DNA from: Terramyces sp. JEL0728
Lineage: Eukaryota > Chytridiomycota > Chytridiomycetes > Rhizophydiales > Terramycetaceae
Direction: 5' to 3'
NCBI GenBank assembly: GCA_027603945.1
Contig: JADIIU010000011.1
Coordinates: forward strand, 124,001-188,000
Length of the DNA stretch: 64,000 nt
Shown piece after piece: positions 1 to 64,000 of this stretch. The notes under the pieces were generated by a model that saw only the letters and a list, made by a program, of their open reading frames with translations, was not told the origin of the DNA and did no database searches. The position numbers and the translations under genes are program-made. Positions within the stretch are counted from its first letter, which is position 1; each line of letters starts with the position of its first letter.

Positions 1-2070
1 GCATAGATATAGCTGGTCGTAGAGGTAAATGTACCGTCTTTGTTTTGGATCGGTTTGCTGAAAGAAAACCCAAGAGCTGCCCATGACGGCATCGGAACTC
101 TCAGAGGGACGATTTTGGATAGGATTTCACCCGACGCAACAGGCATAACAAAGTCCTTTGAAACTCTGTCTGAAATGGTGTAGCCCCCATTACTATTTTT
201 CCAACCAACAGTAATCGCGCCGTCAGTCATACCACTCCCGGTTCCAATAGCGGCCCACTATCATTAGTAAGATTTACCCCTTCCAATGCTGAATGAACAG
301 TAAAGATGATATTTCCTTGGTTGTCATTTTCGCCGTAAATACAGTACTGTTGGCCAACGCAAATGCCATTTTTGCCGCTAGATACAGGCGTAGCCGATGG
401 AGAGCTGGTTTCAATAGTTGGCGACGCAGTAGTTACTGGATTTGATGTGCCACCAACAAAATTAAGTGCTCCAAGTTGTCCTTTGGTTCGGCCATGACCT
501 TTGAAAACCGCGCCTGGATCATCAATGTTTCCAGTTGGAATTTTACTACTGTAAGCATAGAGCCACTGAGTATTGCTAGTGATTGTGTAATCAACAGAGC
601 TAATTGGACGAATGTAAGAGAAAGCCATAGTAGCCCAACTTGGAGCAGGATATTGGAGTGGGATAAGTTTGGATGCTGGATTGCTGCTTACGCCTGGTAA
701 TGAATCAGCGGCTGCAATGCGATCACTGATTGTATATCCGCCAGTAGAGTTTTTCCAAACCACGACGTCTTTCGATCCAATCATGGTGCTTGAATCCGCA
801 CCTATTCCTATCCATCCTAGCGCAGCCGAAAATACAGTGAAAATAATATTTCCAGCACCGTCGGGCTTTCCATAGATACAGTAGGAAGTGTCGACGCAAA
901 TACCAGCTATACTCGGAGTAGGGGAGGAAATAGGAGCTCCTGTTGAAGTAGCGGTAGAAGGGGCCGGTTTATCGACAAAATCCAATACATCAAAGTACCC
1001 CTTGTCATAGTGTTCTAGAATTCGACTGCCTGGGTTATCGATATTCCTCTGGGGAGGATTTTGACCCAGCGCATAGATCCAACTGGATTTACTGCTAAGA
1101 GTAACATCAGAAGCTTGGATTGGTCTTGTAAAGCTAAATGACATTTTGCTCCAGGCGGGTGCAGGATATTGTAAAGGGATTATCTTTGATACTTGGTTAA
1201 CACCAACTGTCGGAGACACGTAGTCAGTTGCGTATCTATCACTGATGGTGAACCCGCCAGTGGAATTCTTCCAAACAATAACGTCGGTGGAATTAACCAT
1301 TCCGGTGCCAATACCAACACCAGTGTATCTATTATTAGGAATGCCCTACCCCTGCGCCGAAGAATGAACAGTAATCATCACATTTCCTAGTCCGTCAGGC
1401 TGACCATAAATGCAAATGGTAGTGCCTACACACTTTCCTGCAATAGATGGAGGCTGGACAGGAGTAGCTGTTGGAGAAGGGGTAGTTGCTACAGGCTTGT
1501 CAACAAAATCTAGAACGTCCAGCAAACCTTTATCGTAATGTTCAAGTATTCGGGTTGCAGGGTTATCAATATTTCTTTTTGGGGGACTATGCCCAAGCGC
1601 GTATATGTAGCTGCTGGAACTGGTCAAGTTAACATCAGCAGATATAATTGGTCTGCTGAAAGAGAAAGACATGTTACTCCAAGCCGGTGCTTCAATTTGC
1701 AACGGTACAATCTGAGATACAAGGTTATTGCTTACAGCTGGAGATACATAGTCGGTCGCAACTCTGTCACTAATCGTGAATCCACCAGTAGAGTTCCTCC
1801 ATACAATGATGTCCGTCGAGTTAACCATGCCTGAACCAACGCCTATAGCAGTCCATCTAAATTAAAACCAATCTACCCTGGTGCAGATGAGTGTACGGTA
1901 AAAATAACATTTCCATTTCCATCAGGTTGCCCGTATAAACAGATTGCTTCTGTTCCAATGCACTTTCCATTTATCGGTGGGGAAGCTCCATCCTTGGTCC
2001 CAAATCTAACTCTAGTGGGCGGGAAAAAGATGGACCATAGCAAATTGGCAATTAATCCAACCGCAACCAT
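1..2070 (-). CDS. Secreted protein with at least four tandem DOMON domains (C-terminus outside window)
   Basis: The protein starts with a hydrophobic signal-like segment (MVAVGLIANLLWSIFF) and continues with four or more copies of a DOMON-type module of about 170 residues. Each copy has a C-x4-C-[IL]-YG-x-[PN]-D start, a HSSA-G-W core and a TDI/TDVIVW-(K/R)NSTGGF/Y-TISDR stretch. DOMON is a beta-sandwich that binds heme or sugars, usually in secreted or membrane redox proteins; the ligand here is unknown. Introns: 1857-1876 (20), 1329-1349 (21), 258-277 (20). All three fall at the same place in the repeat, between the HSSA-G and the following W/Y. The start at 2070 is the first ATG; the same frame is open further upstream but only from a TTG codon. 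The gene runs off the left edge, so a C-terminal membrane or cytochrome b561 region cannot be excluded. Confidence 0.8.
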
Positions 2071-2516
2071 TTGAAAATACGACAAAGCTTTGTATATGTT
2101 TATATCTTTCCATCAGTCCTCGATTCCGATTTGCCGTATACCGTTTCTTGATTAGGAAAGATCTGTTGGTGAATCGATGCACAAAAATGGAAAAATTAAA
2201 CATGTGGTGAAAAATTTGTTGCTCCTGCATGGCGTTGTCAAAGAATCCTATCAAAATAAGCCGAGTGCTGGCCAGCGACTGCTTTCAAACAAATCTTTAA
2301 TCTCTGCTGTCATCTGGTAAGTAGTTCTATTGTACAAAGACAACACATGTATGGGAACCGAGTTTACAGTTTTCCACATTTTCACCGGAACTCTCGTGGA
2401 GAATATCCGTTAAGTACAAGCTTTATTTCGGCCATTCACCCTCAACCAACCAAACTGAGGATTTGAGCAATGCAAGTGAAACGCAAAAATGAAATGGGTT
2501 TATTGATCCATAATTT
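2071..2516. other. Intergenic spacer without a supported gene
   Basis: Between the start of the DOMON gene and the stop of the small ORF at 2517 I see no conserved coding signal on either strand. Short open frames here lack intron signals or a start codon, and no tRNA-like A/B boxes were seen. It probably holds the DOMON promoter and the 3' end of the small upstream gene, with an AATAAA on the minus strand 12 nt after that gene's stop. Confidence 0.5.
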
Positions 2517-2678
2517 CTAATGGTCAGGATCAATGTCCATCGCAGACTGCGCCATTATAACCTCATTTGCCGCGTGGAATTGAGCTAAGACGTATTCTTT
2601 CACCACGTTGAGCAAATGGCTATGCTTGATAATAACTGTTTGTATCACAAACCACAGCGCAGTCTTATAGTTCAGCAT
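2517..2678 (-). CDS. Small ORF, 53 residues, unknown
   Basis: An uninterrupted ATG-to-TAG frame of 53 codons begins 15 nt after the USP14 stop, in the same direction. The product has a hydrophobic N-terminal helix (about residues 8-20), a second likely helix (HLLNVVKEYVLAQFHAANEV) and an acidic MDIDPDH tail. An AATAAA lies 12 nt after the stop, which is the normal gene-end layout in this window and supports a real transcript end. I recognise no family. It could also be the last exon of a gene whose upstream exons I failed to find, or a cistron read through from USP14. Confidence 0.45.
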   Translation of the reverse strand: MLNYKTALWFVIQTVIIKHSHLLNVVKEYVLAQFHAANEVIMAQSAMDIDPDH

Positions 2679-2693
2679 TGTAAGGAAAAATGT

Positions 2694-4294
2694 TTATTCC
2701 AAATCTCTGGCTTTGTAAAGGCACATATATGCGGTGTGCCAATCTCCTCCGCCTTCAAGTTTTGTAATATCTTCCTCTTTGATCTGCGATACTTTATCAT
2801 CATCGAATTTCCACCAGTATGCCCCTTGTTTCGCCCAGCCAATATAGTGGCCAGAGTTTGCACCACGACCAACATGGGTAAGCACTATTGTTGATTAAAT
2901 ATTACCTGCAACTAGATCGTATTGTCCAGAAGGATTTACACCAGGGTCTTCAACAAGAGATGAATCAACGCCTATTTCTTCAAGTAACGCCTTTTGATTT
3001 TTAGGTGGTTCAACTACCGCCATTTCTTCTGGGCTATTTTCCAATTTTCTCTTTTTCTAACATTAACTTGAGATACCTTTTCTTCTGCTTTCTTATCGGC
3101 AATTTCCTTCAACTTTGCTTTTGCAGGTTGTAATTTCGTAGACAATTCAGGTGTGCAGTATGGAACCATATCTAACTCAAATGGAAATTGGACTCGTTTC
3201 AAAATCTTTGCTTTGATTTGTTCTTGCGCTTTCCATTGGAAACGCACAAAATTGATCGTGAGATATCGAGGGAGACGACTGATTTTGGAGGTTTTTGTGT
3301 AAATTGCGTTTCTGCCTAGCGAAGGAGAGTTCTTTTCAATTTTTTCTATTAAACCATTTCCAATTTCAGACACCATGTAAGTAGACACTGTATCAATATA
3401 CACTTACCGCCGGACCCAATATTAACACGCAGCTTGTTGGTCGACTCCATTGAAATTGATGGCGCTTCACTTGGGGCATCGTCGCATTTAGTTCTAAGTT
3501 ACATTCCGAATTACTCTACAATTGTTTCAACAGTCATGAATTGCTCGACAAATTTCTTGCTTTTGTTACTTTCTCCAGTGCGAGTTAAGCTGTTGACAGT
3601 TTCATCCAAGACGTGAACGATTTGTCCCCAGCACTCTTCTGCGTCCTGCTGCATAAATCCATTGCGGTCTCTTTCAGCAAATTGCGGATACAAGGTGCGA
3701 AGTAGCTAGGTTAGGAAAGTGCTACCTGGACAAACATTACAGGATGAACAGCTTGTCCAGACTTGTCGAGTTCCTTGAACAGGGCATTCATTGAAACGGA
3801 AAAGTTTTGTTGGTTGTTGGATGAAATATTGATCCCAGACCTGAGTTAACAAACTTTTACTTTTCAACAGCATTTGGCAATTCGGTAACTGCTCGAAGAC
3901 ATTGCAAGGTGGAATTCAAATAGCATGTGTTACCCAAATTGACCAAACCAGCAGGAATGTTCAACTACTATAAGCATAAATTACAGCTCTGGAAATTTGT
4001 GCTTCTGATAAATCTTCCAGGAACACGGTTTTCTCTTGAGGTTCTCTGAGCACTTCAACAGTTCCCATCATCATTAATTGCTGGTTTTCCTTTAATTTCA
4101 AAGTGTTTAAATCCGTATCGTCTTTCAACACCCCACCCTTGACCATGATCTTTTGGCGTTCAGGTGCAACACCGGTTAAAGAAAATACCTGTGTCTTCAG
4201 AACTAGTCCTGGTTGACTGAGATCGGCTGGCACGTTATATTTTCCACCATTCCATTTGATGATAACTGGGATTAGGTTTTCAATTACTATTCAT
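2694..4294 (-). CDS. UBP6: Proteasome-associated deubiquitinase USP14/UBP6
   Basis: Predicted 478 residues, close to the family length. An N-terminal ubiquitin-like domain (KIMVKGGVLKDD, about residues 20-85) binds the proteasome base. It is followed by a C19 protease with the Cys box GLVNLGNTCYLNS, the QQDAEECW motif, ISRLPRYLTINFVRF, and the His box NSGHYIGW with WWKFDDDKV. It removes ubiquitin chains from substrates held at the 26S proteasome. Eight introns: 4266-4287 (22), 3966-3985 (20), 3841-3860 (20), 3706-3725 (20), 3494-3514 (21), 3388-3407 (20), 3057-3076 (20), 2885-2905 (21); removing them gives one frame. The first exon has only seven coding bases. It is divergent from the HDAC gene, the two ATGs being 37 bp apart, so they share a promoter. 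The stop TAA lies in AATAAA. Confidence 0.93.
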
Positions 4295-4331: not shown

Positions 4332-5882
4332 ATGACAGTCAAAACCAGAAAAAACAAGACGTCGTACTACTACCACTGTAAGATCTGTTTAACCGTAGCC
4401 GATATTGGCCACTATTATTACGCACCACTACACCCAATGAAACCACATCGCATTCGCATGACCCACAACCTAATTGTAAATTATGGATTATACAAAAAGC
4501 TGGAAATCAATCGCCCAAACCCCGCTACTCTAAAGGAAATGACCAAATTTCACTCTGACGAATATATAGAATTTCTTCAAAGAGTCACACCAGAGCAAAC
4601 TGAAGAAATCAACAAGCACCAAACAAAATGTGATTTTTAATTAATGTAGTCAATTTACTGGATGATTGCCCGGTCTGGGATGGGCTGTATGAATTCTGTG
4701 CTCTATCGGCTGGTGGTTCGATCTCTGCAGCGGCAAAGTTAAACAGAGGTGATACTGACATTGCGATCAACTGGGGTGGTGGTCTGCATCACGCCAAGAA
4801 AGGTGAAGCTTCTGGGTTCTGCTATGTCAACGATATTAATCTTGCTATTTTAGAATTGCTCCGTTATCACCAAAGAGTTTTGTACATTGATATTGATAAT
4901 CATCATGGTGATGGAGTAGAAGAAGCTTTTTATACCACTGATCGAGTAATGACTGTTTCCTTCCACAAGTATGGCGAATATTTCCCTGGAACTGGAGATA
5001 TTTTGGATGTTGGGCATGGAAGAGGAAAACACTATTCCGTTAATTTCCCATTAAAGGACGGCATTGACGATGAATCGTATAAAGTCATCTTTTCTGAAGT
5101 GCTACTTAATTAACTCAGGTTTTGCAATCGGTAATGGACAGATTCCGTCCTGGCGCAGTTATCTTGCAGTGTGGTGCCGATTCTTTAGCAGGTGACAGAT
5201 TGGGCTGCTTCAATCTATCCATGAAAGGTAGCTAATTTTAACACCAGGCCATGCGTATCCCCTTGAATTCATGAAAAAATTCAATGTGCCTTTGCTCGTA
5301 CTTGGCGGAGGTGGATACACCATTCGCAACGTATGCCGTGCTTGGACCTACGAAACCTCACTGTGTGTCGATGAAGAGCTTCCTGAAGGTATTTTGTGGT
5401 TGAGATAGCATTGCCATTTAACGACTATTTCCAGTATTTCGGGCCAGACTATCGTTTAGAAGTCCCTGCTACAAATATGGAAAACATGAATTCCAGGGAA
5501 TATCTAGAAAAGATGAAGTAGTCATAAGCTGATATAGATCTAAAATATTGGAGAACCTGAGACACATTGACCACGCACCGAGTGTTCAAATGCACCAAGT
5601 TCCGCATGACCTGTATTCTTCTGATGATGAAGATGATAATGACAAGGACAAGCGTATTACTCGTAGATATTATTGATATTAGAAAGAATGTCCGATAAGC
5701 GAAGAGTTCCAGAAAACGAATTATCCGATTCGGAAGATGAAGGAGATAACAGAAGGAACCAGCGATCATACAAGGAAAGAAGTTTGCTGTCCTTTGATAA
5801 AGAAGGCAGGGGCAATGACTCTTCCCGTCCAGCAAAGACTGATGCAGGCGACGAAGAAGCCGATGATGAAGCTGATGATTAA
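4332..5882 (+). CDS. RPD3: Class I histone deacetylase (RPD3/HDAC1 type)
   Basis: Predicted 469 residues. The catalytic domain shows GHPMKPHR-like [15 protein letters not shown], the paired histidines in [11 protein letters not shown], the zinc ligands in [40 protein letters not shown] and [15 protein letters not shown]. It removes acetyl groups from histone tails in Sin3/NuRD-like complexes in the nucleus. The C-terminal tail is acidic (SDSEDEGD and [12 protein letters not shown]), as in HDAC1/Rpd3. Seven introns: 4378-4398 (21), 4630-4649, 5099-5118, 5228-5247, 5389-5408, 5518-5537 and 5663-5682 (20 each). The start chosen is the first ATG in frame ([19 protein letters not shown] after splicing). 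The stop overlaps TTAATAAAT. Dense tiny introns make any unspliced translation badly broken. Confidence 0.96.
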
Positions 5883-5963: not shown

Positions 5964-6331
5964 ATGTCTGCGATAAAGGACCAAAACAAGGATTACAATG
6001 AAGTTGAAACCGCATTGAATAGACTTCAAGCCCACAAAGGCGTACAAGGAATAGTCATTGCAACACACGAAGGCTCTGTTATTAGATCCACGCTTGATAA
6101 CATTCAAACTCCACAAATATCTACACTGGTTACTCAATTAGCAGCGCGAAGCAAAGGAGTAGTGCGCGACTTGGATCCAGAAGTAATTCATAGATAACAG
6201 CAGGACGAATTGAAATTTTTACGTATAAGATCAAAGAAACATGAGATTATGGTAGCAGAAAGTATACTGTTTATTAACTATTAGCTAAATCATATTTGAT
6301 GATTGTAATACAAAATCCGCACGAATTATAA
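5964..6331 (+). CDS. DYNLRB: Dynein light chain, roadblock/LC7 type
   Basis: Predicted 107 residues, slightly longer than the usual 96-100. It matches roadblock along its whole length: LNRLQAHKGVQGIVIATHEG, then RSTLDN, the LAARSK helix, RDLDPEDELKFLRIRSKKHE and the terminal strand MIVIQNPHE. It dimerises and binds dynein intermediate chains in cytoplasmic or axonemal dynein. Introns 6183-6203 (21) and 6262-6284 (23). It converges with the GTPBP1-like gene, with only 11 bp between the two stop codons, so the two 3' UTRs must overlap. Confidence 0.93.
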
Positions 6332-6342: not shown

Positions 6343-8282
6343 TTACCGGGTTATTGAATCCTGTTTTGTAAATGGATTATGTAGATTAAGAATCTTTCCG
6401 ACACATTTGATTCCAGCTCCACGAACTAGCACAGTTGAGCCAACTGTTAAATGTTCTGGTTCGTACATGAATCGCAGACGAACTCTGCCATGCTGACCAT
6501 GCGCAAGGTGTATTCCTGGTTTAGATTTGCGTTTTGGGGATGGTTTTGGCGAGTCTTCTACTGTTAGGCTATTTTACCATCTGAGGAAGTGAACGCAATT
6601 TCATTTTCACCACTTGTTGGTTTGATTGTCATTACTTTTGCAAGCTGTCTGACACTGCCAACGTATACCATAACTTGTTGTTCACTATAGAGAGAAGTTG
6701 GATGAATCAATACGTATAGATCAACATCAATTTCCCAGAAACTTGGTGGTGGGTCCAATCCAAAAGGTACAAGGGATTGTCCCCTTCTTATTTTAAATTC
6801 AGCTGGAGCGCTTTCAATCCAGGAAGATTTGTTATAAATATTTAGTTTCTCTAAATCTTGTGGCCCAAAGTTACTAGTGTCTTCATTATAGAACTTGACT
6901 GCACAAGTCGCAACCTGTCCAGCCTGTACATGACTCACTTTACACCTCTGGCGATGTACAGAGTGAATTATTACTGGGATAAATCTGCCTCTGTCTGGAC
7001 CGAGGTAAAATATTTGAGGGGTGTTGCCAGACAAGTACATTCTGCCATTGACCATAATGCCTCCAACAACACATCCAGTCCCGTCCACTGTAAACACATC
7101 TTCTATCTGGAATTCAGTTTCAGACTCCAGCACTTCGTTTCTTGGAGCTTGTGGTTTTGGTAATAGATTAAACAACTTGACGAGCAGATTGATATTTTCA
7201 CCAGTGACGCTCGACACTAGGAATAAAGGGACGACGTTGCTGACATTAACGAAAAGTACCTTGAAACCAACATTGGTATGCATGTGGCCAAATCATCTTC
7301 ATCCTTTATCACTATTGGTATCCTGGCCATTCCTGGGGTCTTCAAATACGACAACAAGGTTTTCAAAGTAGCCGTCAGTTTTTCAGCAGTCGTAACATCA
7401 ATCTTGGTAATTACAATAAATAATGGTACTTTTAGCAGGTTTGTCAACATTATTTGTTCGATAGCAACATCTGGCAATCCACCATAGCTTGCATTCAAAA
7501 TCAAAGTAGCATAATGTGGGGCATTGCCGGTAAGCCCACCTATCGTAGTTTTTTGATATTTAGGATGGCCACAAGTATCCATAAAAGTAACCACCTTTGA
7601 AGAATTTTCACACTATTGTCAATAATATTTACAATTTGCTCCCATGTGGATATATTTGTAGTTGCGTAATTAATGATCTCTCCAGACGAATTGAATCCGA
7701 TGATTTGCCTTGAAATTGAAGACGATCTTCCAGATTCAATTTCATGTCGATGTCTCAGTAAATTTAATCGTGCTTTTCCTCTCCCATTGTCCTTTTCATC
7801 ATGCGACAGGACACCCAACAAAGTGGATTTGCCTGCATCAGCTCCACCCAATACTGCCACTCTTATTTCCAAGAAATGTTGATCATCTTTTAGGCATTTT
7901 CTAAATAGCACTTCCGCAACTGTGTTTTGTCCTACATTCTGTATCCTAATAACTGATAATTCTGCACAAAGTGTGTTTCCCATTAGTTTTAGCGTTTCCA
8001 TAGATGCCTTCATTTCCTGTTCATTCAAACCCACCAGAGTTCCAGCATCAGACACACCGATTTCATAAATTGCCTCACCACCACCTTCAGCCAATCTAAA
8101 TTAGATAACCATTACCGCCATTTCAATTGCGTTACCAAGTGGTCTATTCGTTCTGGAGATGGATCGACTAATTTTAACTTGTACTCGATATTTCCCTCTT
8201 CTACTTCTGGGGGCAATCGATGTCCTGCGGTTTCCAAAAGTGAGAACGTTGTCTCGTTCTGAGCTTTTCCTTTCCGAAACAT
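6343..8282 (-). CDS. GTPBP1/GTPBP2-like translational GTPase
   Basis: Predicted 619 residues. The G domain carries G1 GGADAGKSTLLG, G3 DTCGHPKY and G4 VITKIDVTT, followed by EF-Tu-like beta-barrel domains II (FTVDGTGCVVGGIMVNG) and III (HGQHGRVRLRFMYEPEHL). This family is related to eEF1A/eRF3 and is linked to stalled-ribosome resolution and mRNA turnover in animals; Saccharomyces lacks it. Introns 8096-8115, 7612-7631, 7240-7259 and 6558-6577, all 20 nt. The start is the first ATG (MFRKGKAQNE). The linker around the last intron is basic and serine/proline rich (EDSPKPSPKRKSKPG). Confidence 0.9.
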
Positions 8283-8422: not shown

Positions 8423-9974
8423 TTATTTCAAAACGATGACAAGCGTCGGAGCCATACATGTCTTTAAAATGTCATGAATTCCATAAAACCCAACAGTGGA
8501 AGTATTATCCAAAACCGTTCCAGCTGCACCCAGGATGACGGAATTAGTGTGCTTGCTCACTTTGATCAAATGGGAAACATCTGGGGATACCCAAACTTCT
8601 CCATTTTCAACCAAACCTTCTGAAGTAACAACTTGTCTTTGTAAAGTGTTTGCATTATTAAGCGACAGCAAGCTAGGAGTGGTGAATATTTCGATTCTTG
8701 CATTGGTAGGCTGGTTGGTTTCCAATTTCAATTGAAGGTATGCGGACTGGATTTCGCTTTTTGGCGGAATGTCAATTTTGAAATTAAGATAGTGTTGGAT
8801 ACCTTCCCTTAGTTCCAGAACAGATTTGGAGGAAACAGTCCTTTGGCTGTTTAAAGTGTAAATATCTAAATGGCTTTGGACTGTAGTTTCGTAAAACTTT
8901 TTGGCAGGGATGGTATCCTTTACGTACTGGGCGAGGTTTAACGAAGGCGTAGTGATTTTGAATGTATCCCACTTTGTGCCATCAACATCTTTGAATTTAC
9001 AGTCTGCTTTCAGTGGAGATCCCTTGTGTTTAAAAGTGCATAGCAAGGCACCATAATTCACACCATTCTACAATTAATAATTGGTTACATCTAGAGCTGC
9101 CGTAGCAGCCCACCATGGATTCTTTTCATTGCCTTGTTTCCATGGTCTAATACTGTCGCCGCCCAATCCAGAAACAGCTGCAAAAGACTGGCCAGGCTTT
9201 ACTTCAAGAGTATCATCAGTAGAAGCAATCTCTTGAGTTGCGAAATCAGATAGCAAGTGGGTTCTTTCATAAGAGTGCTCGTGTCCAGTGAAAATTATAG
9301 CACCGTGTTTTCGACAGATATCTATGTTAATATATATTACCATAGACAGCATATCCGGTCTCATCCACTTTATCTCCGGTCTGAAGCTTGTTTTGGTTCT
9401 TGTGCCACATGCATATTTTCCACGGAACGTATGAATATCGTTTTAAGGCAGCATCAATGAACTCTTCGTGGTGCGACCCCATTGTACCGACCCCTGACAA
9501 CACAAACACCATGTCCTTATAATGGCAAACCCTAGAAACACCGATTTCCCCTGTACAGTGTTTGTCCAGCCCAGACTTTTTCGTTTGCTTCAATAGCAAA
9601 TCTCTATACCCTGTTCTTGGTTCAAACCATTTCAAAATATCGTGATTGCCAATAACCGACATCATTGGAAACTTTTTCCCCATCGCATCAGTAAATTGGT
9701 TCATAAAACTAGTTGGATCATCTTCGTAATCGAAATCTCCAAGATGTAGCAGTAAATCTGGTCCCCAACCTCTAACCATTTTTAATACTTGCTCCGGTTT
9801 TACTCCTAGTCCTTGGTCTCCTAGGATAGCAATTCTAGTTTCCTTTTGCTGTTTTGCTTTCGTATATTTTTCCACTTGAGGAATATTGAATTTTTCAAAT
9901 GCTTGATTTTCCAGTAATGGACAATTGCTTCCAAACGCCAAAACCCAGCTGGCCAATAGCAATTGTTTCCACAT
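8423..9974 (-). CDS. Secreted calcineurin-like phosphoesterase with a C-terminal beta-sandwich domain
   Basis: Predicted 503 residues. After a signal peptide (MWKQLLLASWVLAFGSNC) comes a metallophosphoesterase fold with GDQG, HLGDFDYE (D-x-G/D-x-D), VIGNHD and FTGHEHSYERTH. This is the purple-acid-phosphatase-like order, so hydrolysis of a phosphomonoester outside the cell is likely. The C-terminal third (about residues 290-503) is a separate domain with EIQSAYLQLKLE and VWVSPDVSHLIK, resembling DNRLRE-type repeats of secreted proteins. Introns 9322-9340 (19) and 9068-9088 (21). The upstream TTG-started extension was rejected in favour of the ATG that begins the signal peptide. Confidence 0.82.
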
Positions 9975-55415: not shown

Positions 55416-56968
55416 CTATATCAACTTATTATTACTGGCCATAAGATTTAGTTCTCGAAATTCCTGGATGTTCTCCATTAGCGATTCCAGTTCCTGTAGG
55501 TATTTAAACATGACATCTCGAGGCCAGAATGCCTCCAAATCTCTATCTGCTTGCAAGGCTTCCAAAGTTTCTTCAACCATCTTGTCCCAAGCTGCGGTTA
55601 ATCTACTTTTACTATCTACATTCATCTTGTCTTCCATCCTCTTGTGGATTTGTTCCAACTCTTCATTTCTCTGATCGCTCGATAAAAGGGGATTTGGCTC
55701 TCTGCTATTAGGATTAATTACTCTTTTAAACTCTCTTGTTCCAATTGTCGTTTTAGTTTTAATTTCATCCTTTCCAGCTTCTTTGCTTCCATTTCCGCTT
55801 GTCTCTCTTCATCCAGTTTGGCTAAATTAACCAAAAATACCTGCAATTCTCTTGAAATTGTGAATCATCACACCCACAAAAATATTTCGAAACACAAAAG
55901 CTCCCAACCACGACCAGCTAAGAATAAAAAAATGCGACAGGCCAGGGTTCGTCACTTGGCTTAGGTTTCGGTCAAGAGGATCCCATTGGTCAAAGGTCAT
56001 CACGATAAAAATACTCTGGAAAGATTCTCCAATTGAGGCAAAGTAATCTTGATACACCAATCCGATATTTGTTGAATGTACGTAGTCTTCATACAGATTC
56101 ACTCCAAGGTTCGCATACATTGTCGCAGCCAATATAATGAATAAAATAATGAAATTCATCGACTGTATTAGTGAGGCTTACTTGCAATGCCTGGAATATC
56201 GTGACTACAATCGTCCTTAAACTTTCCATTCGAACAATAATTTTAGGCACAACTAAAACTTGAACAACACAGGTGTATTTGCTCGCCGCCGTGGAATATC
56301 CAAACATCAAGTTGTAAATATTGGGTCCAAACACGCCAACGGTGATTATAAAATCAAATATCCTCCATCTGTTATTCCAATAGCCTGAAAAGTCATCGAT
56401 CCAATATAAAAGTATATCCATTGCCAGTGTACACAATATCGCTGTGTTTATCAATGGAATGATTCCAAGAGAGTAATAGTACTGCTCTTGTTGTTGAAAA
56501 TACTCTGCCATGAACCCGATATTGATAGAGTAAACAAATACAAGGACGAGAATCAAGTTTTGGTAGATGTCTAGGCTTGTCAGCCATCTAGCCCATGCAC
56601 CAATTGGAATAACTTGTTGATTCTTTGTCCTAATTAGCCGGCGATCCACTTTGCCCTTTTCATTTGTCTTTCTCCGTATTTCCTTTGTTAAACCTTTATA
56701 CTGAACACCAAATAACAGATGAAGGGGATTCAATCAACAGTTTTTGCCGAATTTCTGGATCCTGGAAATCTCTGGTGGTATATCTCGATCCGTTTAATGA
56801 TGTTGATGATACTATATCCAGACTCTATCGTGAGTGGAAAGATACTTCTATGATATTGAACTCTTGAATCAGTTTGTCCCTGAAAAACGAGGCATTTTCT
56901 GACAAGTCTCTAAAAGCTGTGTTATTGAAAATTACCCGACTGCACACCTCTCTGTGATTTGGTTTCAT
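55416..56968 (-). CDS. CATSPER2: CatSper2-like flagellar cation channel subunit
   Basis: Predicted 484 residues with one six-helix channel domain. Helices include LILVLVFVYSINIGFMAEYF (S1), IDDFSGYWNNRWRIFDFIIT (S2-S3) and FIILFIILAATMYANLGVNL (S5). The pore loop TFDQWDPL has the CatSper T-x-D-x-W motif, and S6 is FVFRNIFVGVMIHNF. The tail has a coiled coil and then AFWPRDVMFKYLQELESLME, which matches the conserved C-terminus of animal CatSper2. The channel admits calcium into flagella. S4 keeps few basic residues (VPKIIVRMESLRTIVV). Introns 56825-56845 (21), 56683-56701 (19, acceptor AAG), 56163-56181 (19), 55822-55840 (19) and 55702-55721 (20). CatSper subunits are known in chytrid-type fungi. 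Confidence 0.87.
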
Positions 56969-57056
56969 AGGACAGCTCGGTTGAGGAATACTGTTTCTGC
57001 TTGAACAAGCTCATTGTTTACGCGTGCAAAAATTTAAAGAGCTGACATTTATTTGT

Positions 57057-58217
57057 TTAAAAAATATCTACGGTCAAAAGAGAATACCTATTCATCACTC
57101 TAGCGAGGGTATGTATAGTTACAGGCGCCGCGAGTATTTCATCTACCCCACTGCAGGTGGAATAATCTGTGTCTTTTCTGCCAACGGTGCATAGGATTGG
57201 CACGTTATGATTGATTGCTTTGATCTGGTTGGTTATTCTCTGACAGCCAGATTCATTTCCGTCGAATATGAAAAAGTCAAAGTTGTCAGAGTTTTGAATT
57301 GTGCTATATAAAAAGTACTCGTCTTTAGCCTGTATTATATTGCACTTTAGTTGGTCTAGGAGAGGCACCATATGCGGCGATTCATTCCTGGAATACAGCA
57401 GAATCGATGTTTTTCTACAATTAGTTTGGCAGCACCTGAGCGGTTCGGATATATTGGGGGACATGCAGCGATCATCAAGCAACGACGCGGCATTAGAGCT
57501 CTTGCTTGCTGTAGAATTTGAAACTGCCTCTACAGCCGTATGGAGCGTTCCGAGTTCGGATAATTCGTGAACTAGCGTTACATAGGATTACATTGATCCA
57601 GCAGAGCCTTAGACCGAGAATTCTCTGGTAAAAGGTACGCTAATTGAGTAATCATTTGTGTCTGCTGCAGTATTGTTTGCCTCATCGCATACATATTTTC
57701 TTCAATTAAGCAGCACCTTGCTTCTGTTTCAGCAACCTTGCAATCCAACTCGGCATTGATAGCTCGAAGCGATTCGATTTGGCTAGTCACATTAGTTCTG
57801 TGTCGACTATCTACAGTCAATGAGATGGAACCTGTCTTTGTGATATTCCAGCATATCTTTGACCACTGCTCTCTGCGATTTTTCTTGAAATGCTGGTGAG
57901 AATATTCAGAGGACTATATTAGTTGCAGGTACATTATCAACGTCATTCGGAAATGGGGTTTTGCTTCTGCGGAAGCCATGTTTATTCAATTGCCTGATGA
58001 AAGACGCCAATTGATTATGTCGAAAGTATTGCGGAAGAACGGACCTGGTAAACTCGCTGCTGTTCTTGATAACAATCGATTCTCCATTCTTTCCCCAAAC
58101 TATTGCATCCTGAGCGTTGTCACACAACATTCTATTCTTAGTTATATTGTACATGTTTAGTTTCTGTATAAATGGGACGACTGCACTCGTCTCCTCTTCG
58201 AATATTTCGTCTGGCAT
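57057..58217 (-). CDS. SKN7/PRR1-like HSF-domain protein with degenerate receiver domain
   Basis: Predicted 366 residues. An HSF-type DNA-binding domain (VVPFIQKLNMYNI, SVLPQYFRHNQLASFIRQLN, KHGFRRSK) is followed by a coiled coil (IESLRAINAELDCKVAETEA) and a C-terminal fold like a response-regulator receiver. In that fold the phospho-acceptor-like Asp is present (FDFFIFDGNES), but the acidic pair and the catalytic Lys-Pro appear lost (ILLYSRNES and ILAAPVTIH). SKN7/PRR1 control oxidative and cell-wall stress genes downstream of histidine kinases. Introns 57914-57932 (19), 57811-57831 (21) and 57572-57591 (20). AAATAAAT overlaps the 3' end. Confidence 0.83.
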
Positions 58218-58500: not shown

Positions 58501-59927
58501 TTATTGCAAAGACAATTTCATAGTTTCTAATACCAGCGTGTCGGTAATCAAATCAGTTGGATCAGTGAATAGTTTCCATGACAGTTCATTGATTACCTTA
58601 ACATCGTCTTGCTTGGCACGCATGATCTTTACTTCTTCAGTCTTGATTTTGTTTGTCAGCTTTGTCCAGGTAGAAGATGAGAGTGGAGCATCAGTTGCTG
58701 CGGTTCTTGCTCTCTTTTCGAGTTCAACAACATCCTGTCCAGTCCCAACATTTCTGATGAAAATTTTAGAAACTTGGTCTGGATAAGCCAAATGGACTTT
58801 GGAATATACCTCAATGTCATACTCACCACTATCCCCGACCATTATGAATTTTCTTTTTGGGAAATCCTTGACGATGGATTTGATGACTTGGATTTTGTAG
58901 TCCACTGGTCCAATTTCCGAGGTATTCCTCAAAATCAAAGAGCCTTCGGGAAAGTTGAATGAGCTGACGAATGTGTGTACAACAGGTAATAATTGGAACG
59001 GGCCGGCGCTGACATAGTGGAAAGCAGTCTTTTTTGAAAACTAGAATCAGCTATCGATTACCAAGAGGTTGTATGAATCTCTCATCCCAGGAACGTCTTT
59101 AAAGTCACCAAACAAAGACACTTTAGCAGCGGTCAACAGTCCATCATATACACACTACCATTAAATTGGATTACCGAGTGCTTGATAGTATCGTCTACAT
59201 CAGAAACAAGGGAAATCCCTTCCGGTTCAATCAAAGGAATATTTCCAAAGACATTTGATTCCAATTCGGTCGGCAAGAATGCGATTATTCGCAATCTGAT
59301 ACGGCCGTGGAATTCTTCTTTGGTGTCCCTTGTAATTTCATCAATATTTACTTGTGGGATATTCATGCTGCCAGTAAATATTCCGTTTGCATCAGTTTGT
59401 AATTCAACATAGAGATACCCATCTCCCACTAACTTGGTCTTGTCCAACTTGTCAAATTCTAATTCATCATTCGTATCCTCTACTTCCGCATCCTTTTTTT
59501 CAGCTGTTATATCATGCGGTGGTGCTATCCCTACGACACTTATACGTACAGTTTGTTTTGCCAATGGTGCTGAAAGAAATGAAGCTGTGCGTTCCGCAAA
59601 TACCTGTTTATTGTGGCCGCTGCTTCCATCGATAGGAGCCAACATTCTACGAGTTACACTTCGAAAGAATCTGCTTCGTTTTGAGGATTCAGTGGATTTG
59701 AAGGCCCATCCTTTAATATTAAGCTTCCATTCGTTAGTTTCTTCATTCAATGAGGCATAGGTAGGAAACAAGAGGATCTGAGTTTGTGTTGTCCCCATCA
59801 TTGTGCGCTTGACTCTCGCTCTAACCAAGCGGGGAAACATCAAAAACTTATACAAGAGTGGCGTAGAGGAACCAAAAGGAGTTTCAAAGTCAACTGCGAG
59901 TACATTTCTCTGGTGGAAGATGGGCAT
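58501..59927 (-). CDS. APP1: APP1-type phosphatidate phosphatase
   Basis: Predicted 461 residues. The N-terminal beta domain (LLFPTYASLNEETNEWKLNI, KGWAF) is followed by the HAD-like catalytic domain with the DxDxT motif GISLVSDVDDTIKHS, VPGMRDSYNLL, FHYVSAGPFQLLPVV, FPEGSLILR and RKFIMVGDSGEYDIEVY. APP1 dephosphorylates phosphatidic acid at actin patches and endocytic sites. Introns 59155-59174 (20; just after the DxDxT motif) and 59041-59061 (21). The start at 59927 is an ATG, but an additional 5' exon cannot be excluded. The stop is in CAATAAAC. Confidence 0.88.
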
Positions 59928-60238: not shown

Positions 60239-60253
60239 AACTTTTTATTGCAG

Positions 60254-61962
60254 CTATTCATCAAAAGCCCTGATAAGTTCGTGATAGAAACGTACAATAC
60301 CAACCAAGTTCTCGACACTGTTATTTTCATTAACAGTATGTACGCCTTCTCCTCCGGTGGCAATTTCAGGAACAAATCTGAAAATAGAGTTTGAAAGATT
60401 CCAAGTGTAGCGAGTGTCAGTGTTTGCAGTCATCAAAGACGGAGCAACAATAGCTTGAGGGAACACCCGGCGAATAACCGAAGACAAGATCTTGTACGGA
60501 GATGCATCCGTTGGAGAGATTGGGGATGGGTTGAATCCAATATGCTTTACCGCAATAGCACCTTTGGTTCCTGAAGATCGCGGCGTTTCTAGCGTAGGAA
60601 GGAAATCGAGGTTATTCTTTTTTGCAATTGGTCCAACAATAGAGTAAATATGTGCAAGAGTTGTGTCAACAGTTTCGTGAAGAGCAATTCTGTGATTTGA
60701 GACTTCAAAAGAAAATTGAGGGAGAGCGTTTACCTTGACACCGCCTTGAATTAAATCAACTGCCTGAGAAGTAGTAACAGCAGCTTTCAATTGCGGGTTT
60801 TCAGAGAATGCTTTCAATAGAATGTGCTTGAATGCCTTCCAGTGCTTCAATACGTATTTTTCGCGTTTTGAGAATTTGTTTGTATGTTCTGCTTGGCAAT
60901 TCAATGATTTCAAAATTGGATTGCTGCCTTCCAAGTCTGGAGTGAACGGATTGTTTTCTAGCGCAACGATTACTTGCGACAGCATACCAATCCCAGTGTG
61001 AGGAGGTGCAATAGAAGCATGTCCACCAATATCGATCGAGACCGAAATATTGACATTAAGGAACCCCTTTTCAGCAATGCCAATGTTTGCAAAAGTGAGA
61101 TCCTTTTGTTTCATTATTCCAACTTTGGCATCTTCAACAATCGCAAGCGCGAGCCCCTCATCCAAAATCATTTCAACACCCTGATGTCCAATGCCAAGGT
61201 GGTTTTCAATGAAAGCGACGATTTCTTGTGCACCGTTAAATCCAGTAATTTCTTCGTCGTGTCCAAAAGCAATAATTACTGGACGTTTTGGCTCATAATT
61301 TACCTGTAAGAGAGCTTCAACAGATTCTAATATGCCAATCAGGGACATTTTTGTGTCAGCAGTTCCTGGATTAATAGCAAAGTACCTCTTCCCCAAACCT
61401 TTTCGTCAGCAATTTCACCAGAAAATGGTGGATACTTCCATTCATTGGCCGTCGCAGGGTCCACAGGAACAACGTCCATATGTGCCATTAGCATGATTGG
61501 TTCCAACTGCGAATCCGAGCCTTTCCAGTAAAACAAAAGAGAGTATTCGTTAACAACATGCTTTTCCAACCTTTGGTGCACCAATGGATAAGCTTTTTCC
61601 AAATATTGATGCAGATCCAAGAATGGTTTGTGAGACACTGGATCCTGGGGAGATTGAGCAGTCATATCATCATACGAAACCGTCGGGATTTTGATTGCAC
61701 CAGAAAATCGCTTAGATGCTTCATCTGCAAAGGATTGAGAAGTCAAGTATTCTTCGTATCGCTGGTTTAATTCCGCAGCCCTATCACCAGTCGGTTCATA
61801 CGGTTGTTCTTGAATGCAATCATCATCTAGCGAAACTTCATTCAAATCCGGCCAATAGGTTAGGAAAACAGCGATAACTAACAGTAATGGCAGGAAAATC
61901 CCAACAAAGGTCCATCTTTTTGAAGTTTTTTTATTTCCAAGGAGAGATTGTTTTTCGTTCAT
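60254..61962 (-). CDS. CPS1: Carboxypeptidase S-like M20 zinc peptidase
   Basis: Predicted 562 residues. One N-terminal membrane helix (FVGIFLPLLLVIAVFLTYW) targets it to the vacuole or secretory route. The M20 metal sites are MLMAHMDVVPVD, VWGRGTADTKMSLIGIL (joined by splicing) and FGHDEEITGFNGAQEI; SIDIGGHASIAPPHTGIGML is the dimerisation-domain region and ATGGEGVHTVNENNSVENLV the last His site. It removes C-terminal residues from peptides. Intron 61366-61385 (20) lies at the second metal ligand. AATAAA follows 5 nt after the TAG. Confidence 0.93.
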
Positions 61963-62154
61963 AAAGTTCTGGCTTAATCAAATCGACAGGGGCCTGTTGA
62001 CTTGCCATGTGCGGTCATCCCAATGAAATAGACACGCTCCAAGAAAGTCGTCGGTAATACATTTAATTGCACTAGCATCGTGAATGCTAACGATGTCGCT
62101 TGAGTTTCTCTTGTGCTTGATATATTCCGAAAATTCTGATCTTGAATTTTTCAC

Positions 62155-63953
62155 ATGGAGAAAACAAGTAAACAAGGAGATGCTGGAAATACATCCAGAC
62201 AGAGTTGGATGCTGGAACAAGACAGTCAAGTGGGCGATATATTCAAAGCATCGGGCAGAGAAAAGACAAATAGGGAAATCGAAAGAGAAAGGCAGCAAAA
62301 GGAAGCTGAAAGGATTAGAAAAGAGCGAGAAATCAAGCCAATTGAAAATTCGGCTAGAGGATATGAATTTGGAGACAAGGGATCGTCCTGGAGAATGATG
62401 AAATTGAAAAGAGTGTTTGATATTGCAAAAGAGGAAGGAGTTGCAGTTGAAAAGATTGCTGTAGAAAGATATGGAGATATCAAGGATTTTCAGGAAGCTA
62501 TGGAGGAACGAGAATATCTAGATTTTCACAAGAAAGGATCTGATTCAAGCAGCAGGTCCAATTTCAAGAAACCTAGTTTTAAAGCTCCTTTGGATTATTC
62601 CAAGCCGTACAGAAATGAAAAAAGGACACACAGAGATCAGGATAATTCACAAGAGAAAGAAGACGAAGGTGTTTATCGTAGAAGCAAGGCAGTTGAGAGC
62701 ACGCAGCCCCTCCCACCAGTAATCACACCGGTTGTTAAATACGAATTGGACGAGTCAATACTATCCAAAGACCAGTTAAACAAATTACATGCCAAAGTAC
62801 TGAAGGCTAAAATGTTGAATCTGCCAGATCTAGAGGAGTTGGAGGAAGAATACTATTACGAATTGGCAAAAGCTGAATCTGGAGACAAGGTTATCATAGT
62901 GCCTTCCGTGAATAGCAGAGGAGAGCTCAATACAAACGACTCTACAGCAGTAAAAAACAAAAACACACACGACAAGCAAGGTAACAGACTGGGCTATGAC
63001 GACGAAGGCGAGCAAACATTGGATGATCTTGTTCGCTACGAGAAACTAAACAGGTCTTCTAATTTCGACAAGGATTTGTCACACCAAATTTCAAGAGATT
63101 CCACTTTCAAAGATAACCTGGATTATATGGATGATAGTACCGATAGATTATCTCGAAAAAAGAAAGACAAGAGAGATCATTCAGAGAAACAGGCCGTTAG
63201 AGGTAATATAAATTTAAAAATAGACTTTAAAAAGTCTGAAGCAGCTCTGGCAGAATGTGTGTATTGTTATCATGATACCGAGCCTCCAAAAATTACTGTA
63301 GTCTCCCTGGGAAATACAGTATACCTGGCTTTGCCCGAAACGATTGACATGGTTCCATATCACTGTTTAATTGTCCCTATTCAACATGTAAATTCTACAT
63401 TGGAGCTGGATGATCAGGCTTGGGATGAGATCAGAGTATTTTCAGACTAACTTTGAACTTTAAGAAATGTCTAATTCGAATGTGTGCCTCGAAAAACCTG
63501 TCCATACTGTTTATGGAGCAAGTCATTTTTGTCAAACAGCAGAGGCATACTGTCATTGAATGCATACCAGTTCCTAATGATGTTTACGAAGATATTCCAG
63601 GATATTTCAAAGAGGCATTGTTGAACGTTGAAGGTGAATACACCCAACACAAGAGTATAATCAATACCGATAAAGGATTCCGCAGATCCTTGGTGAAGAA
63701 TCTGCCGTATTTCCATGTTTGGTTCGATCCCAATCGTGGAATGGGGCACGTAATAGAAGAACCCAAGGAATGGCAGCATTGGTTTGGAAAGGTACATTCG
63801 AGTTTATATTAGCAAGTAATAGCCAGTGCAATGGACTTGCCACCGACCCTGTGGAGAAGACCCAAATACATTGAACCGCATGAAGTCGGAAAGAGACGGA
63901 AAGTATTTATGGATGCGTGGAAAGACTTTGACTGGACAAAGATGCTTGAATAA
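62155..63953 (+). CDS. CWF19L2: CWF19-like spliceosome disassembly factor (CWF19L2 type)
   Basis: Predicted 585 residues. The N-terminal half is charged, with IAVERYGDIKDFQEAMEERE. The C-terminal CwfJ domains show CVYCYHDTEPP, LALPETIDMVPYHCLIVPIQ, then (after splicing) HTVIECIPVP, LPYFHVWFDPNRGMGHVIEE and the terminal PKEWQHWFGK...WKDFDWTKMLE block. CWF19 proteins act with debranching enzyme and lariat turnover. The last intron is 63792-63812 (21). The junction at 63436 needs either a 20-nt GT-TG intron (63436-63455), which restores the conserved IRNF, or a 29-nt GT-AG intron (63436-63464), which drops three conserved residues. Start at 62155 gives a short N-terminus; upstream exons are possible. 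The stop is in GAATAAAT. Confidence 0.88.
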
Positions 63954-64000
63954 ATTATATTACCATATTAGAATGATTACTCGATAGAAATATTTATTCC

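Follow-up and report, generated by a model that had tools for sequence, protein, structure and literature searches.

Evidence for genome-wide 20-nucleotide spliceosomal introns in a chytrid fungus

Introduction

Introns of about 20 nt or less have been reported on a genome scale for a relict algal nucleus, for ciliates and for mikrocytids; a fungal case would bring them into the kingdom of the yeasts, whose spliceosomes are the best known. In the nucleomorphs of chlorarachniophytes (Bigelowiella natans and relatives), the published account describes GT-AG introns of narrow length, 18-23 nt, the commonest being 19 nt in B. natans, with 20-nt introns abundant in Lotharella vacuolata (35.8%) (PMC4494063). 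Three of the four genomes treated there carry 2.6-3.2 introns per gene, and introns of 40-41 nt are described as rare and read as possible fusions (PMC4494063). In Stentor coeruleus, the branch A is reported to be fixed 5 nt from the intron end, and the commonest intron begins with GUAAUU (PMC9505925). Batrachochytrium is described as intron-rich, with 37,153 introns predicted in B. dendrobatidis (PMC5364385). Our literature search found no published genome-scale set of such tiny introns in a fungus.

Here we analyse 64,000 nt of Terramyces sp. JEL0728 (GCA_027603945.1, contig JADIIU010000011.1, positions 124,001 to 188,000; hereafter the window) together with a 200-kb sample drawn from 20 further contigs of this 15.0-Mb genome, a draft assembly of 231 contigs.

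Results

A scan for GTA...TAAY...AG made without gene models yields a single, sharp length peak at 19-22 nt, with a mode of 20 nt, in the window and the 20 other contigs. Window matches at 19, 20, 21, 22 and 23 nt number 19, 34, 14, 7 and 8, compared with 2.2, 2.2, 2.1, 2.9 and 2.6 in dinucleotide shuffles. The same scan of the 200 kb outside the window finds 96 matches at 20 nt where 7.6 are expected, so that the 20-nt mode originally proposed for the whole genome does recur beyond the window. Short introns are present on all 20 other contigs at 6-20 per 10 kb, and extrapolation gives ∼18,000-20,000 introns for the whole genome.

A trained gene model, applied to the window and the sampled contigs, places 348 introns in 116 of 151 gene models, and 344 of these introns are 18-23 nt long. 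On reversed sequences it returns five genes and a single intron, of 161 nt. Under strict settings the window contains 74 introns in 37 gene models, all of 19-22 nt and 44 of exactly 20 nt (Table 1). Under relaxed settings there are 94 introns in 46 gene models, of which 93 are 19-23 nt (50 are 20 nt) and one is 49 nt, nearly reproducing the original prediction of 96 introns in about 32 genes, with 95 at 19-23 nt and 51 at 20 nt. The near-uniform intron length of 19-23 nt is confirmed and extends beyond the window.

Table 1. Predicted genes of the window and their introns (lengths in nt in brackets; from the strict gene model unless stated).
Gene	Product	Span	Strand	Introns	Basis
g01	secreted-looking repeat protein, reaches window edge	1..2070	-	258-277 (20), 1329-1349 (21), 1857-1876 (20)	gene model
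g02	USP14/UBP6 deubiquitinase	2694..4294	-	2885-2905 (21), 3057-3076 (20), 3388-3407 (20), 3494-3514 (21), 3706-3725 (20), 3841-3860 (20), 3965-3984 (20), 4266-4287 (22)	gene model; Pfam UCH + ubiquitin
g03	RPD3/HDAC1 histone deacetylase	4332..5882	+	4378-4398 (21, without in-frame stop), 4630-4649, 5099-5118, 5228-5247, 5389-5408, 5518-5537, 5663-5682 (20 each)	gene model; splice-blind alignment (not first intron)
g04	presumably roadblock-like dynein light chain	5964..6284	+	6183-6203 (21)	gene model
g05	GTPase, presumably GTPBP1/2-like	6343..8282	-	6558-6577, 7240-7259, 7613-7632, 8096-8115 (20 each)	gene model; Pfam GTP_EFTU
g06	metallophosphatase	8423..9974	-	9068-9088 (21), 9322-9340 (19)	gene model; Pfam Metallophos
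g07	TSR3-type ribosome biogenesis protein	10102..10959	-	10751-10769 (19), 10877-10896 (20)	gene model; Pfam Ribo_biogen_C + Fer4_RLI
g09	presumably MFS-like membrane protein; 5' end uncertain	13198..14292	+	13823-13843 (21)	gene model
g10	pyruvate dehydrogenase E1 alpha	14510..15723	+	14759-14778 (20), 15196-15216 (21, with in-frame stop)	gene model; Pfam E1_dh
g11	S1/P1 nuclease	15779..16727	+	16193-16212, 16309-16328 (20 each)	gene model; Pfam S1-P1_nuclease
genes including g12		17305..18770	-	18373-18392 (20, strict, g12); 17613-17632, 17774-17793 (20 each, relaxed model only)	
g15	presumably TPR protein	21975..22879	+	22308-22327 (20)	gene model
phosphatase-like reading frame, then g16	phosphatase-like (by eye)	22895..25136	+	23569-23587 (19), 23952-23970 (19), 24184-24203 (20) strict; 23047-23066, 23267-23287, 23310-23330 relaxed only	
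g17	CPSF73/IntS11-like nuclease	25165..27023	-	25989-26008 (20), 26201-26221 (21)	gene model; Pfam Beta-Casp, Lactamase_B_6, RMMBL
g19		28102..28637	+	28460-28479 (20)	gene model
g20	presumably copper-transporting P-type ATPase, from its motifs	28656..32708	-	28967-28988 (22), 31989-32008 (20), 32646-32666 (21)	gene model
g21 + neighbour	esterase-like (by eye)	32836..34018	-	33442-33460 (19) strict; 33798-33818, 33864-33883 relaxed only	
g22	short basic protein	34465..34664	-	34552-34571 (20)	gene model
g24	presumably nucleotide-sugar-transporter-like membrane protein	36598..37759	+	36757-36776, 37649-37668 (20 each)	gene model
g25	Argonaute	38016..40715	-	38144-38162 (19), 39277-39295 (19), 39987-40006 (20), 40659-40678 (20)	gene model; Pfam Piwi, PAZ, ArgoN, ArgoL1, ArgoL2
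g26	glucose-6-phosphate dehydrogenase	40934..42513	-	41392-41411 (20), 41710-41730 (21), 41920-41941 (22), 42328-42348 (21), 42433-42452 (20)	gene model; splice-blind alignment
g27	presumably STAMBP-like deubiquitinase	42964..44352	+	43955-43974 (20), 44117-44135 (19)	gene model
g28	YME1-like AAA/M41 protease	45226..47307	+	45899-45918, 46119-46138, 47156-47175 (20 each)	gene model; Pfam AAA + Peptidase_M41
g29	WD40 protein, presumably LIS1-like	47331..48644	-	47562-47580 (19), 48096-48115 (20), 48420-48439 (20), 48591-48609 (19)	gene model; Pfam WD40
g31	transketolase	50203..52300	-	51722-51740 (19), 51969-51989 (21), 52194-52214 (21)	gene model; Pfam Transketolase_N, Transket_pyr, C-terminal domain
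g33	presumably LIM-domain-like protein	53902..55318	-	54034-54052 (19)	gene model
g34 + upstream genes		55384..58217	-	55416-55435 (20), 55702-55721 (20), 55822-55840 (19) strict; further ones relaxed only	
g35	APP1 phosphatidate phosphatase	58501..59801	-	59041-59061 (21), 59155-59174 (20)	gene model; Pfam APP1_cat
g36	presumably M20-type carboxypeptidase	60254..61962	-	61366-61385 (20)	gene model
g37	CWF19/CwfJ-like protein	62155..63450	+	63203-63223 (21, candidate, relaxed model only)	CwfJ_C_1 match ends at profile position 75 of 122

The introns of the trained model begin with GTA (90%), GTT (5%) or GTG (3%), and a T[AG]A[CT] branch-like motif is present in 291 of the 344 short ones. In 289 of these the A of the motif precedes the intron end by 4-7 nt and in the other 2 by 9 nt, in agreement with the GTA/GTT starts, TTAAY/CTAAY site and AG 4-7 nt later that had been read from the window. 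The presumed branch A falls mostly at intron position 14 (145 introns) or 15 (115 introns), and the AG follows 5-6 nt downstream. Among the 291 introns with the motif, its distance is 13.6 nt (s.d. 0.78) from the 5′ splice site and 5.5 nt (s.d. 0.74) from the 3′ end, such that the branch A predicted from the motif would occupy a nearly fixed place relative to both intron ends. GC content is 30% in introns versus 41% in coding sequence.

If retained, 288 of the 348 introns would shift the reading frame. An in-frame stop is carried by 56 of the 60 introns whose length is a multiple of three, a share that is too high because stopless introns of this kind escape the gene finder; motif counts give no shortage of 21-nt introns. 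Splice-blind protein-to-genome alignments recover excisions of similar size. All five excisions in G6PD are 20-22 nt and all six in HDAC are 20 nt, each at GT-AG or within 12 bases of it relative to the gene model, and the HDAC alignment lacks the 21-nt first intron. For USP14 aligned with four homologues, 24 of 29 excisions are 20-21 nt and the remaining five are 23, 26, 29, 35 and 48 nt; seven of the eight intron places are recovered, and the first intron, of 22 nt, appears in none of the four alignments.

Many introns interrupt conserved domains: in the 12 genes scanned with Pfam, 26 of 38 lie within matched stretches, or 24 of 34 when the WD40 gene g29, for which the joint span of several matches was taken, is left out. 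The final G6PD intron in Table 1 interrupts the codon for the second G of GASGDL (residues 18-23). In the YME1-like protease, the second intron falls directly after Walker A (GPPGTGKT, residues 282-289) and before residue 292. Both motifs are intact in the spliced models, as had been claimed, and excision would restore conserved proteins. Two near-identical genome copies, on contigs 199 and 111, provide a further comparison (3072 matches, 20 mismatches). Apart from an end effect they differ by five indels: two of one base inside predicted introns (21 vs 20 nt each), three between genes and none in exons. The spliced 351-residue protein is identical in both, and one-base length differences are tolerated inside the short introns.

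The genome had been described as of flagellated fungal type, and protein trees narrow the host to Rhizophydiales (Chytridiomycota). In the USP14 tree, the sister is Boothiomyces macroporosus (support 100/99; g02 is 91% identical to the Boothiomyces protein), followed by Globomyces (100/100), within an eight-row group that includes Batrachochytrium (100/96). In the G6PD tree, Globomyces is the sister (100/100) within a six-row group (97/96). Boothiomyces and Globomyces are listed as Rhizophydiales, and we take the other members of both groups to belong there as well.

Among spliceosome components, U2 snRNA (C70:14443-14635) scores 140.2 bits over the full model, and its branch-recognition sequence GUAGUA is intact. 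SF1 is represented by an SF1-HH match above cut-off, in two pieces, and its spliced model matches the PDB Splicing factor 1 chain with an E value of 2e-56. The unspliced U2AF65 gene reaches 251.7 bits with U2AF_lg, below the cut-off of 310.3, and the spliced model matches the PDB U2AF 65 kDa chain at 9e-62. All three look canonical, with nothing visibly unusual. U1 was not found with the Rfam model alone, nor U6 with the Rfam model, three patterns and BLAST; a failed search or a hole in the assembly would account for these misses, and for that of RED below, just as well. The Rfam U6 matches fall on the final exons of a two-copy protein gene. The RED_N profile gave no match, a miss that does not show absence of RED, which together with Smu1 is required for short human introns (PMC6692369).

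Discussion

The best reading of these data, and a supported one, is that a zoosporic (chytrid) fungus has spliceosomal introns of 20 nt throughout its genome. We consider it very probable that the segments are genuine spliceosomal introns and that the nuclear intron set of this Rhizophydiales chytrid has shrunk to 19-23 nt, with removal that we infer from the sequence.

An improbable alternative is recent gain, rather than shrinkage, from one introner-like mobile element family of fixed 20-nt size. Uniform length, shared motifs and the number of introns per gene model would suit such an origin, but the sequences between the motifs are diverse and T-rich, and the phases (166/104/78) and only mild 5′ bias (50, 42, 37, 33, 31, 48, 31, 21, 29 and 26 introns by decile along genes) look like those of an old set. 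A phase distribution of this kind is ordinary, which suggests that older introns shrank rather than that a new burst occurred.

It is less likely still that many longer introns were missed by a reader and a model that both favored short ones. The counts cover introns in coding sequence, and the trained model does contain four longer candidates (42, 50, 52 and 60 nt), of which those of 42 and 52 nt also appear at looser settings. Against this, when the gene finder is given a flat length prior, 27 of its 48 GT-AG introns are nevertheless 19-23 nt long, with a peak at 19-21 nt, whereas four control dinucleotide pairs give only 2-4 of 37-47 in that range. In this comparison, where the method did not impose GT-AG, it alone among the five pairs produces a length peak; its calls above 23 nt (16) are also fewer than those of the controls (32-37). 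For introns with these signals, motif counts by length bin stay level between 34 and 400 nt, with no second peak up to 400 nt, and neither the G6PD nor the HDAC splice-blind alignment contains a long excision.

Removal or skipping by another route, either DNA-level excision of the type of ciliate internal eliminated sequences or translational bypass, is very unlikely. Eliminated sequences and bypass elements are likewise very short, uniform inserts in coding sequence; however, the boundaries and branch motif here are those of spliceosomal introns, the genome encodes U2, SF1 and U2AF65, and we know of no such route in fungi. The idea that assembly or sequencing errors break real reading frames has almost no probability and is already contradicted: even in a draft assembly, errors would not all begin with GTA, carry a branch motif in a fixed place and end in AG, nor give a single length peak on all 21 sampled contigs that the same model lacks with other dinucleotide pairs.

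How spliceosomal introns of this size would be handled by U1, U2 and U6 is conjecture. Human spliceosomes need 50 nt, and the 5′-site-to-branch spacing of 13-14 nt here is about a quarter of that. U2 presumably forms its usual pairing with the branch site. Because only 13-14 nt separate the 5′ splice site from the branch A, the duplex at the 5′ site (roughly +1 to +6) and the helix at the branch (roughly 9-15) would almost touch, and therefore U1 and U2 probably could not sit together as in the usual early complex. Recognition of the 5′ site is probably handed rapidly to U6, or carried out mainly by U6, in keeping with the weak G at +5 (16%). With no space left for a polypyrimidine tract, U2AF65 would have to bind the T-rich sequence that precedes the branch site, or else work through SF1 and the AG alone. 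A recognition ruler would be provided by the near-fixed length itself. The original prediction invoked a spliceosome adapted to almost no spacing between 5′ site and branch point: the short spacing is borne out by measurement, but adaptation goes beyond the data, U2, SF1 and U2AF65 looking ordinary. In its strongest form, the proposal that a Rhizophydiales lineage shrank an intron-rich set to 20 nt and splices it with U1 playing little or no stable part, U6 reading the 5′ site directly with U2 already on the branch site, is speculative and on balance doubtful. If true, it would make this fungus, which may be culturable, a model in which to study how spliceosomes assemble when their parts exclude one another sterically.

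A fungal case would let the action of a megadalton machine on only 20 nt be approached by comparing orthologues, and perhaps through culturing and genetics. Gene annotation that enforces a minimum intron length could disrupt many genes of such a genome. For Rhizophydium megarrhizum (same order, 15.4 Mb), the published account gives completeness of ∼76% at the genome level and 40.5% at the protein level for one AUGUSTUS-annotated assembly, scores that its authors ascribe to fragmented gene models and, at the genome level, to the reference set (PMC13391722). That tiny introns may lower the scores of such relatives is only a guess, and the 77.7% at the protein level given there for a JGI-annotated single-cell assembly counts against it (PMC13391722).

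Comparable sizes in ciliates and the chlorarachniophyte nucleomorph had been proposed from the window, and published accounts give 15-16 nt for Stentor and 18-23 nt for nucleomorphs. The 19-23 nt seen here approach the lower limit known for any organism. Nucleomorph and Terramyces introns are both tiny, narrow in length and GT-AG, three of the four nucleomorph genomes resemble Terramyces in introns per gene, and the 42-nt candidate in L012 compares with the 40-41-nt nucleomorph introns; in contrast, the nucleomorph is a relict endosymbiont nucleus with ∼800-1,000 introns as reported (PMC4494063), whereas the extrapolated set here occupies a 15-Mb fungal nucleus. Stentor shares a near-fixed length, a branch A fixed close to the intron end, the kind of 5′ start seen in its commonest intron (GUAAUU) and retained SF1 and U2AF, but its introns are described as having the branch A at position 10-11 without a strong branch consensus, unlike the clear TTAAY/CTAAY of the 20-nt introns here, and as present in 18% of genes rather than in most gene models (PMC9505925). 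Mikrocytos mackini also has narrow, tiny introns with conserved motifs; however, these are reported as 16-17 nt and only 224 in number, in a parasite of Rhizaria with a strongly reduced spliceosome (PMC10245619). In Paramecium the introns are likewise all ultra-short, but the reported mode is longer (25 nt), with introns of 3n length scarce and stops enriched (PMC5014332), whereas 21-nt introns are in no shortage here. In Trichomonas vaginalis, introns can be as short as 23 nt and carry a CTAA-type branch motif close to the 3′ end, but 63 active introns in total and a second class of 56-196 nt are described (PMC12316389). Intron-rich Batrachochytrium falls in the same USP14 group as the host and is its best-known genus. 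The Terramyces introns form one narrow class below ∼25 nt, and the predicted set is of the ultra-short type found in nucleomorphs, heterotrich ciliates and mikrocytids.

A narrow intron length class

Distances from GTA to the following TAAY...AG were counted without gene models, with dinucleotide-preserving shuffles serving as background. The window corresponds to C11:124001-188000. In the window, 19, 34, 14, 7 and 8 motif matches occur at 19, 20, 21, 22 and 23 nt, respectively, compared with 2.1-2.9 in shuffles. The corresponding counts for 20 other contigs (10 kb each, 200 kb) are 65, 96, 49, 33 and 11, compared with 7.6-10.0 expected, and the value at 23 nt barely exceeds chance. A second length peak is absent up to 400 nt when motif matches are binned by 10 to 50 lengths. 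Because 243 matches of 19-22 nt are observed per 200 kb where about 35 are expected by chance, length itself is informative.

A simple gene finder gave a similar picture. Provided with codon use from long open frames, and permitted to remove any GT...AG segment of 10-200 nt for a fixed penalty, with no other signal, it called 48 introns, 27 of which are 19-23 nt long. The control pairs GA-TG, AG-GT, TG-GA and CT-AC produced 47, 47, 37 and 40 calls, with only 4, 3, 4 and 2 in this range. When motifs were trained and the length prior remained flat, 182 of 227 calls fell at 19-23 nt and the others were spread over 15-193 nt. Addition of a length prior yields 348 introns in 151 gene models, 344 of them 18-23 nt long, although this prior favors short introns and the unbiased figures are the motif counts and flat-prior runs. 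On reversed sequence the trained model finds 5 genes and 1 intron. Short introns are present on all 20 sampled contigs. The lengths of 19-23 nt and mode of 20 nt in the original prediction are upheld both in the window and beyond it.

Protein homology across the introns

Spliced G6PD matches glucose-6-phosphate dehydrogenase in the PDB over residues 9-487 (E 9e-174), and HDAC matches histone deacetylase 1 (E 4e-201). Among 12 scanned genes, 26 of 38 introns lie inside Pfam-matched stretches, or 24 of 34 when the WD40 gene is left out.

Chytrid proteins were also aligned to the genomic strand by a procedure that has no knowledge of splice sites, but can drop any stretch of 1-300 bases (1-250 for USP14) for a constant penalty. 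The Globomyces G6PD alignment contains five drops of 20, 21, 22, 21 and 20 bases, and the Gorgonomyces HDAC alignment contains six of 20 bases each, missing only a seventh intron. This last intron (see table) was tested against five homologues, and the spliced form scores higher with all five, by 4 to 23; were it retained, HDAC would gain 7 residues unnoticed. For USP14, alignments with Boothiomyces, Globomyces, Gorgonomyces and Batrachochytrium contain 7, 8, 7 and 7 drops; those of 20-21 bases number 5, 7, 6 and 6, respectively. The remainder are 23 and 35 (Boothiomyces), 48 (Globomyces), 29 (Gorgonomyces) and 26 (Batrachochytrium) bases. Those of 23, 35 and 48 nt coincide with residues absent from the annotated Boothiomyces or Globomyces protein. 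The 26-nt drop is probably an alignment choice, since no residues are missing there in the Batrachochytrium alignment.

Features with coordinates or strand in the window and in sampled stretches of other contigs
Sequence	Position	Strand	Feature
Window	1-2070	-	Secreted-looking protein; apparently four repeat copies of ~150 residues, separated by T/S/P-rich linkers
Window	4378-4398	+	21-nt intron near HDAC start, without in-frame stop; missed by the gene finder
Window	18981-21542	-	Two adjoining genes, both intronless, with similar products that look glycosyltransferase-like by eye; likely a tandem duplication
L012	5867-6458	+	Gene model with a 42-nt intron candidate that reads as two adjacent full introns of 21 nt each
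L014		-	52-nt intron candidate in a gene that is CHD1-like by eye
L021		-	50-nt intron candidate

Length differences between two genome copies

Contigs 199 and 111 share near-identical 3.1-kb stretches with two genes (3072 matches, 20 mismatches), perhaps representing two haplotypes, or else a duplication or repeat. Setting aside an end effect, the copies differ by five indels, none of which falls in an exon. Three are located between the two genes, and two are single bases that both lie within predicted introns, each 21 nt long in one copy and 20 nt long in its counterpart. Such a one-base change would shift the reading frame if the segment were kept. The 351-residue predicted protein of the first gene is identical in both copies, and that of the second is identical over the length common to both.

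In-frame stops, longer introns and genome-wide number

In-frame stops are present in 56 of 60 introns whose length is a multiple of three, compared with 171 of 288 others. Translation-linked selection like that in Paramecium was considered and dropped, because the gene finder tends to read through stopless 21-nt introns, as with that in HDAC, and the excess is therefore discounted as evidence. A deficit at 21 nt is likewise not seen, as the motif excess is 64 at this length, compared with 146 at 20 nt and 18 at 22 nt.

With the motif-trained model and flat prior, 40 of 227 calls are 29-193 nt long; with the length prior, four of 348 introns exceed 23 nt. The 50- and 52-nt candidates open with GTAAGT, as do only 13 of the 344 short introns, and perhaps represent a minor group of longer introns whose 5′ sites are ordinary. 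Comparable to the 42-nt candidate in L012, nucleomorph introns of 40-41 nt have been interpreted as two tiny introns that may have fused (PMC4494063).

The 200-kb sample contains 270 introns of 18-23 nt (348 minus 74 in the window and 4 long). Scaled to the assembly (15,016,339 bases, 231 contigs), this count extrapolates to ∼20,000 introns in 15.0 Mb, and the 314 excess motif matches in 264 kb extrapolate to ∼18,000; both estimates draw on less than 2% of the genome.

Intron anatomy and the splicing machinery

The 344 short introns begin with GTA in 90% of cases, most commonly as GTAATT (64), and carry T at +5 in 57% and G in 16%. A T[AG]A[CT] motif is found in 291, mostly as TTAAT, TTAAC, CTAAT or CTAAC, with its branch-like A at position 14 in 145 and at position 15 in 115. 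Spacing varies little, with means of 13.6 (s.d. 0.78) from the 5′ site to this A and 5.5 (s.d. 0.74) from the A to the intron end. The terminal trinucleotide is TAG in 212 introns, CAG in 85, AAG in 40 and GAG in 7. GC content is 30% in introns and 41% in coding sequence, and phases 0, 1 and 2 account for 166, 104 and 78 of the 348 introns.

The spliceosomal components whose examination had been proposed along with the original prediction were recovered in part. U2 snRNA is complete (140.2 bits), with its branch-binding sequence intact. The SF1 gene (contig 39) has a 19-nt intron and encodes a helix hairpin, an SPSP-type motif and KH-QUA2. The U2AF65 gene (contig 2) has four introns of 19-20 nt, and its product starts in an RS-like stretch and contains a ULM-type W, two RRMs and a UHM. 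U1, U6 and RED were not found in the genome by searches run without a positive control, and we conclude nothing from these negatives. For U6, neither BLAST nor three sequence patterns, one of which permitted interruption of the gene, gave anything convincing across the whole genome. The Rfam model produced two hits on contigs 199 and 111, at 27.4 and 26.9 bits against a cut-off of 44; both were rejected because they fall within the final exons of the two-copy protein gene. The sole two-mismatch pattern match was likewise rejected, as it sits in a stretch that looks coding by eye. With U2 complete, the assembly may lack U6, or the gene may be interrupted or altered.

Human spliceosomes are reported to require a distance of ∼50 nt from the 5′ site to the branch site, and to depend on Smu1/RED when it is short (PMC6692369). 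With the 13-14 nt seen here, a 5′-site duplex and a branch helix, if each has its usual size, would be separated by about 2 free bases. The simplest ways out would be for U1 and U2 to bind successively rather than jointly, and for the 5′ site to be read early or directly by U6. T at +5 and +6 would weaken U1 pairing. Since a pyrimidine tract cannot fit into the 5-6 nt from branch to AG, U2AF65 would have to bind elsewhere or act as a bridge.

Relatives and their annotation

The best named matches are Globomyces pollinis-pini for G6PD (82%) and Boothiomyces macroporosus for USP14 (91%). For HDAC, Gorgonomyces haynaldii matches the whole query at 79% identity; a record under a bat name scores higher (61% over 74%), and some chytrids reach higher identity across shorter stretches. 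In trees of 26 and 21 proteins the window adjoins Boothiomyces (100/99) and Globomyces (100/100), respectively, both Rhizophydiales according to a taxonomy look-up, and both trees place it within a group containing Batrachochytrium (100/96 and 97/96). For Rhizophydium megarrhizum, of the same order, RNA sequencing is reported (PMC13391722). The genome seems unannotated in the protein sources searched, as no identical protein is among the matches listed for G6PD, HDAC or USP14.

Boothiomyces USP14 (P0241) starts MNSTLLLILVIIKWNG, compared with MNIIIKWNG for the window gene. It carries 7 extra residues at the window gene's first intron, whose back-translation resembles a plausible 21-nt intron, and lacks 4 residues at the seventh. 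This comparison suggests that tiny introns in the published Boothiomyces genome may be partly mis-annotated. Gaps of at least 4 residues near window junctions occur in 1 of 20 (USP14), 7 of 27 (G6PD) and 2 of 28 (HDAC) homologue rows, at 5 of 19 junctions. Together with the extra residues, they give a hint only that relatives retain a trace of the same introns.

Comparison with known ultra-short introns

Among the literature matches listed from open-licence papers, no title or abstract opening reports a fungus, chytrid or otherwise, with ultra-short introns. The chytrid set resembles in length, ends and narrowness the introns reported from nucleomorphs (18-23 nt, PMC4494063), Stentor (15-16 nt, PMC9505925), mikrocytids (16-17 nt, PMC10245619) and Paramecium (25 nt, PMC5014332), but differs from all four in lineage. 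Its extrapolated number also exceeds the counts given for the first three (about 1,000, 8,806 and 224, respectively). The commonest Stentor intron opens with GUAAUU, like the top chytrid hexamer; unlike Stentor as described there, however, the chytrid set has a clear branch consensus (PMC9505925).
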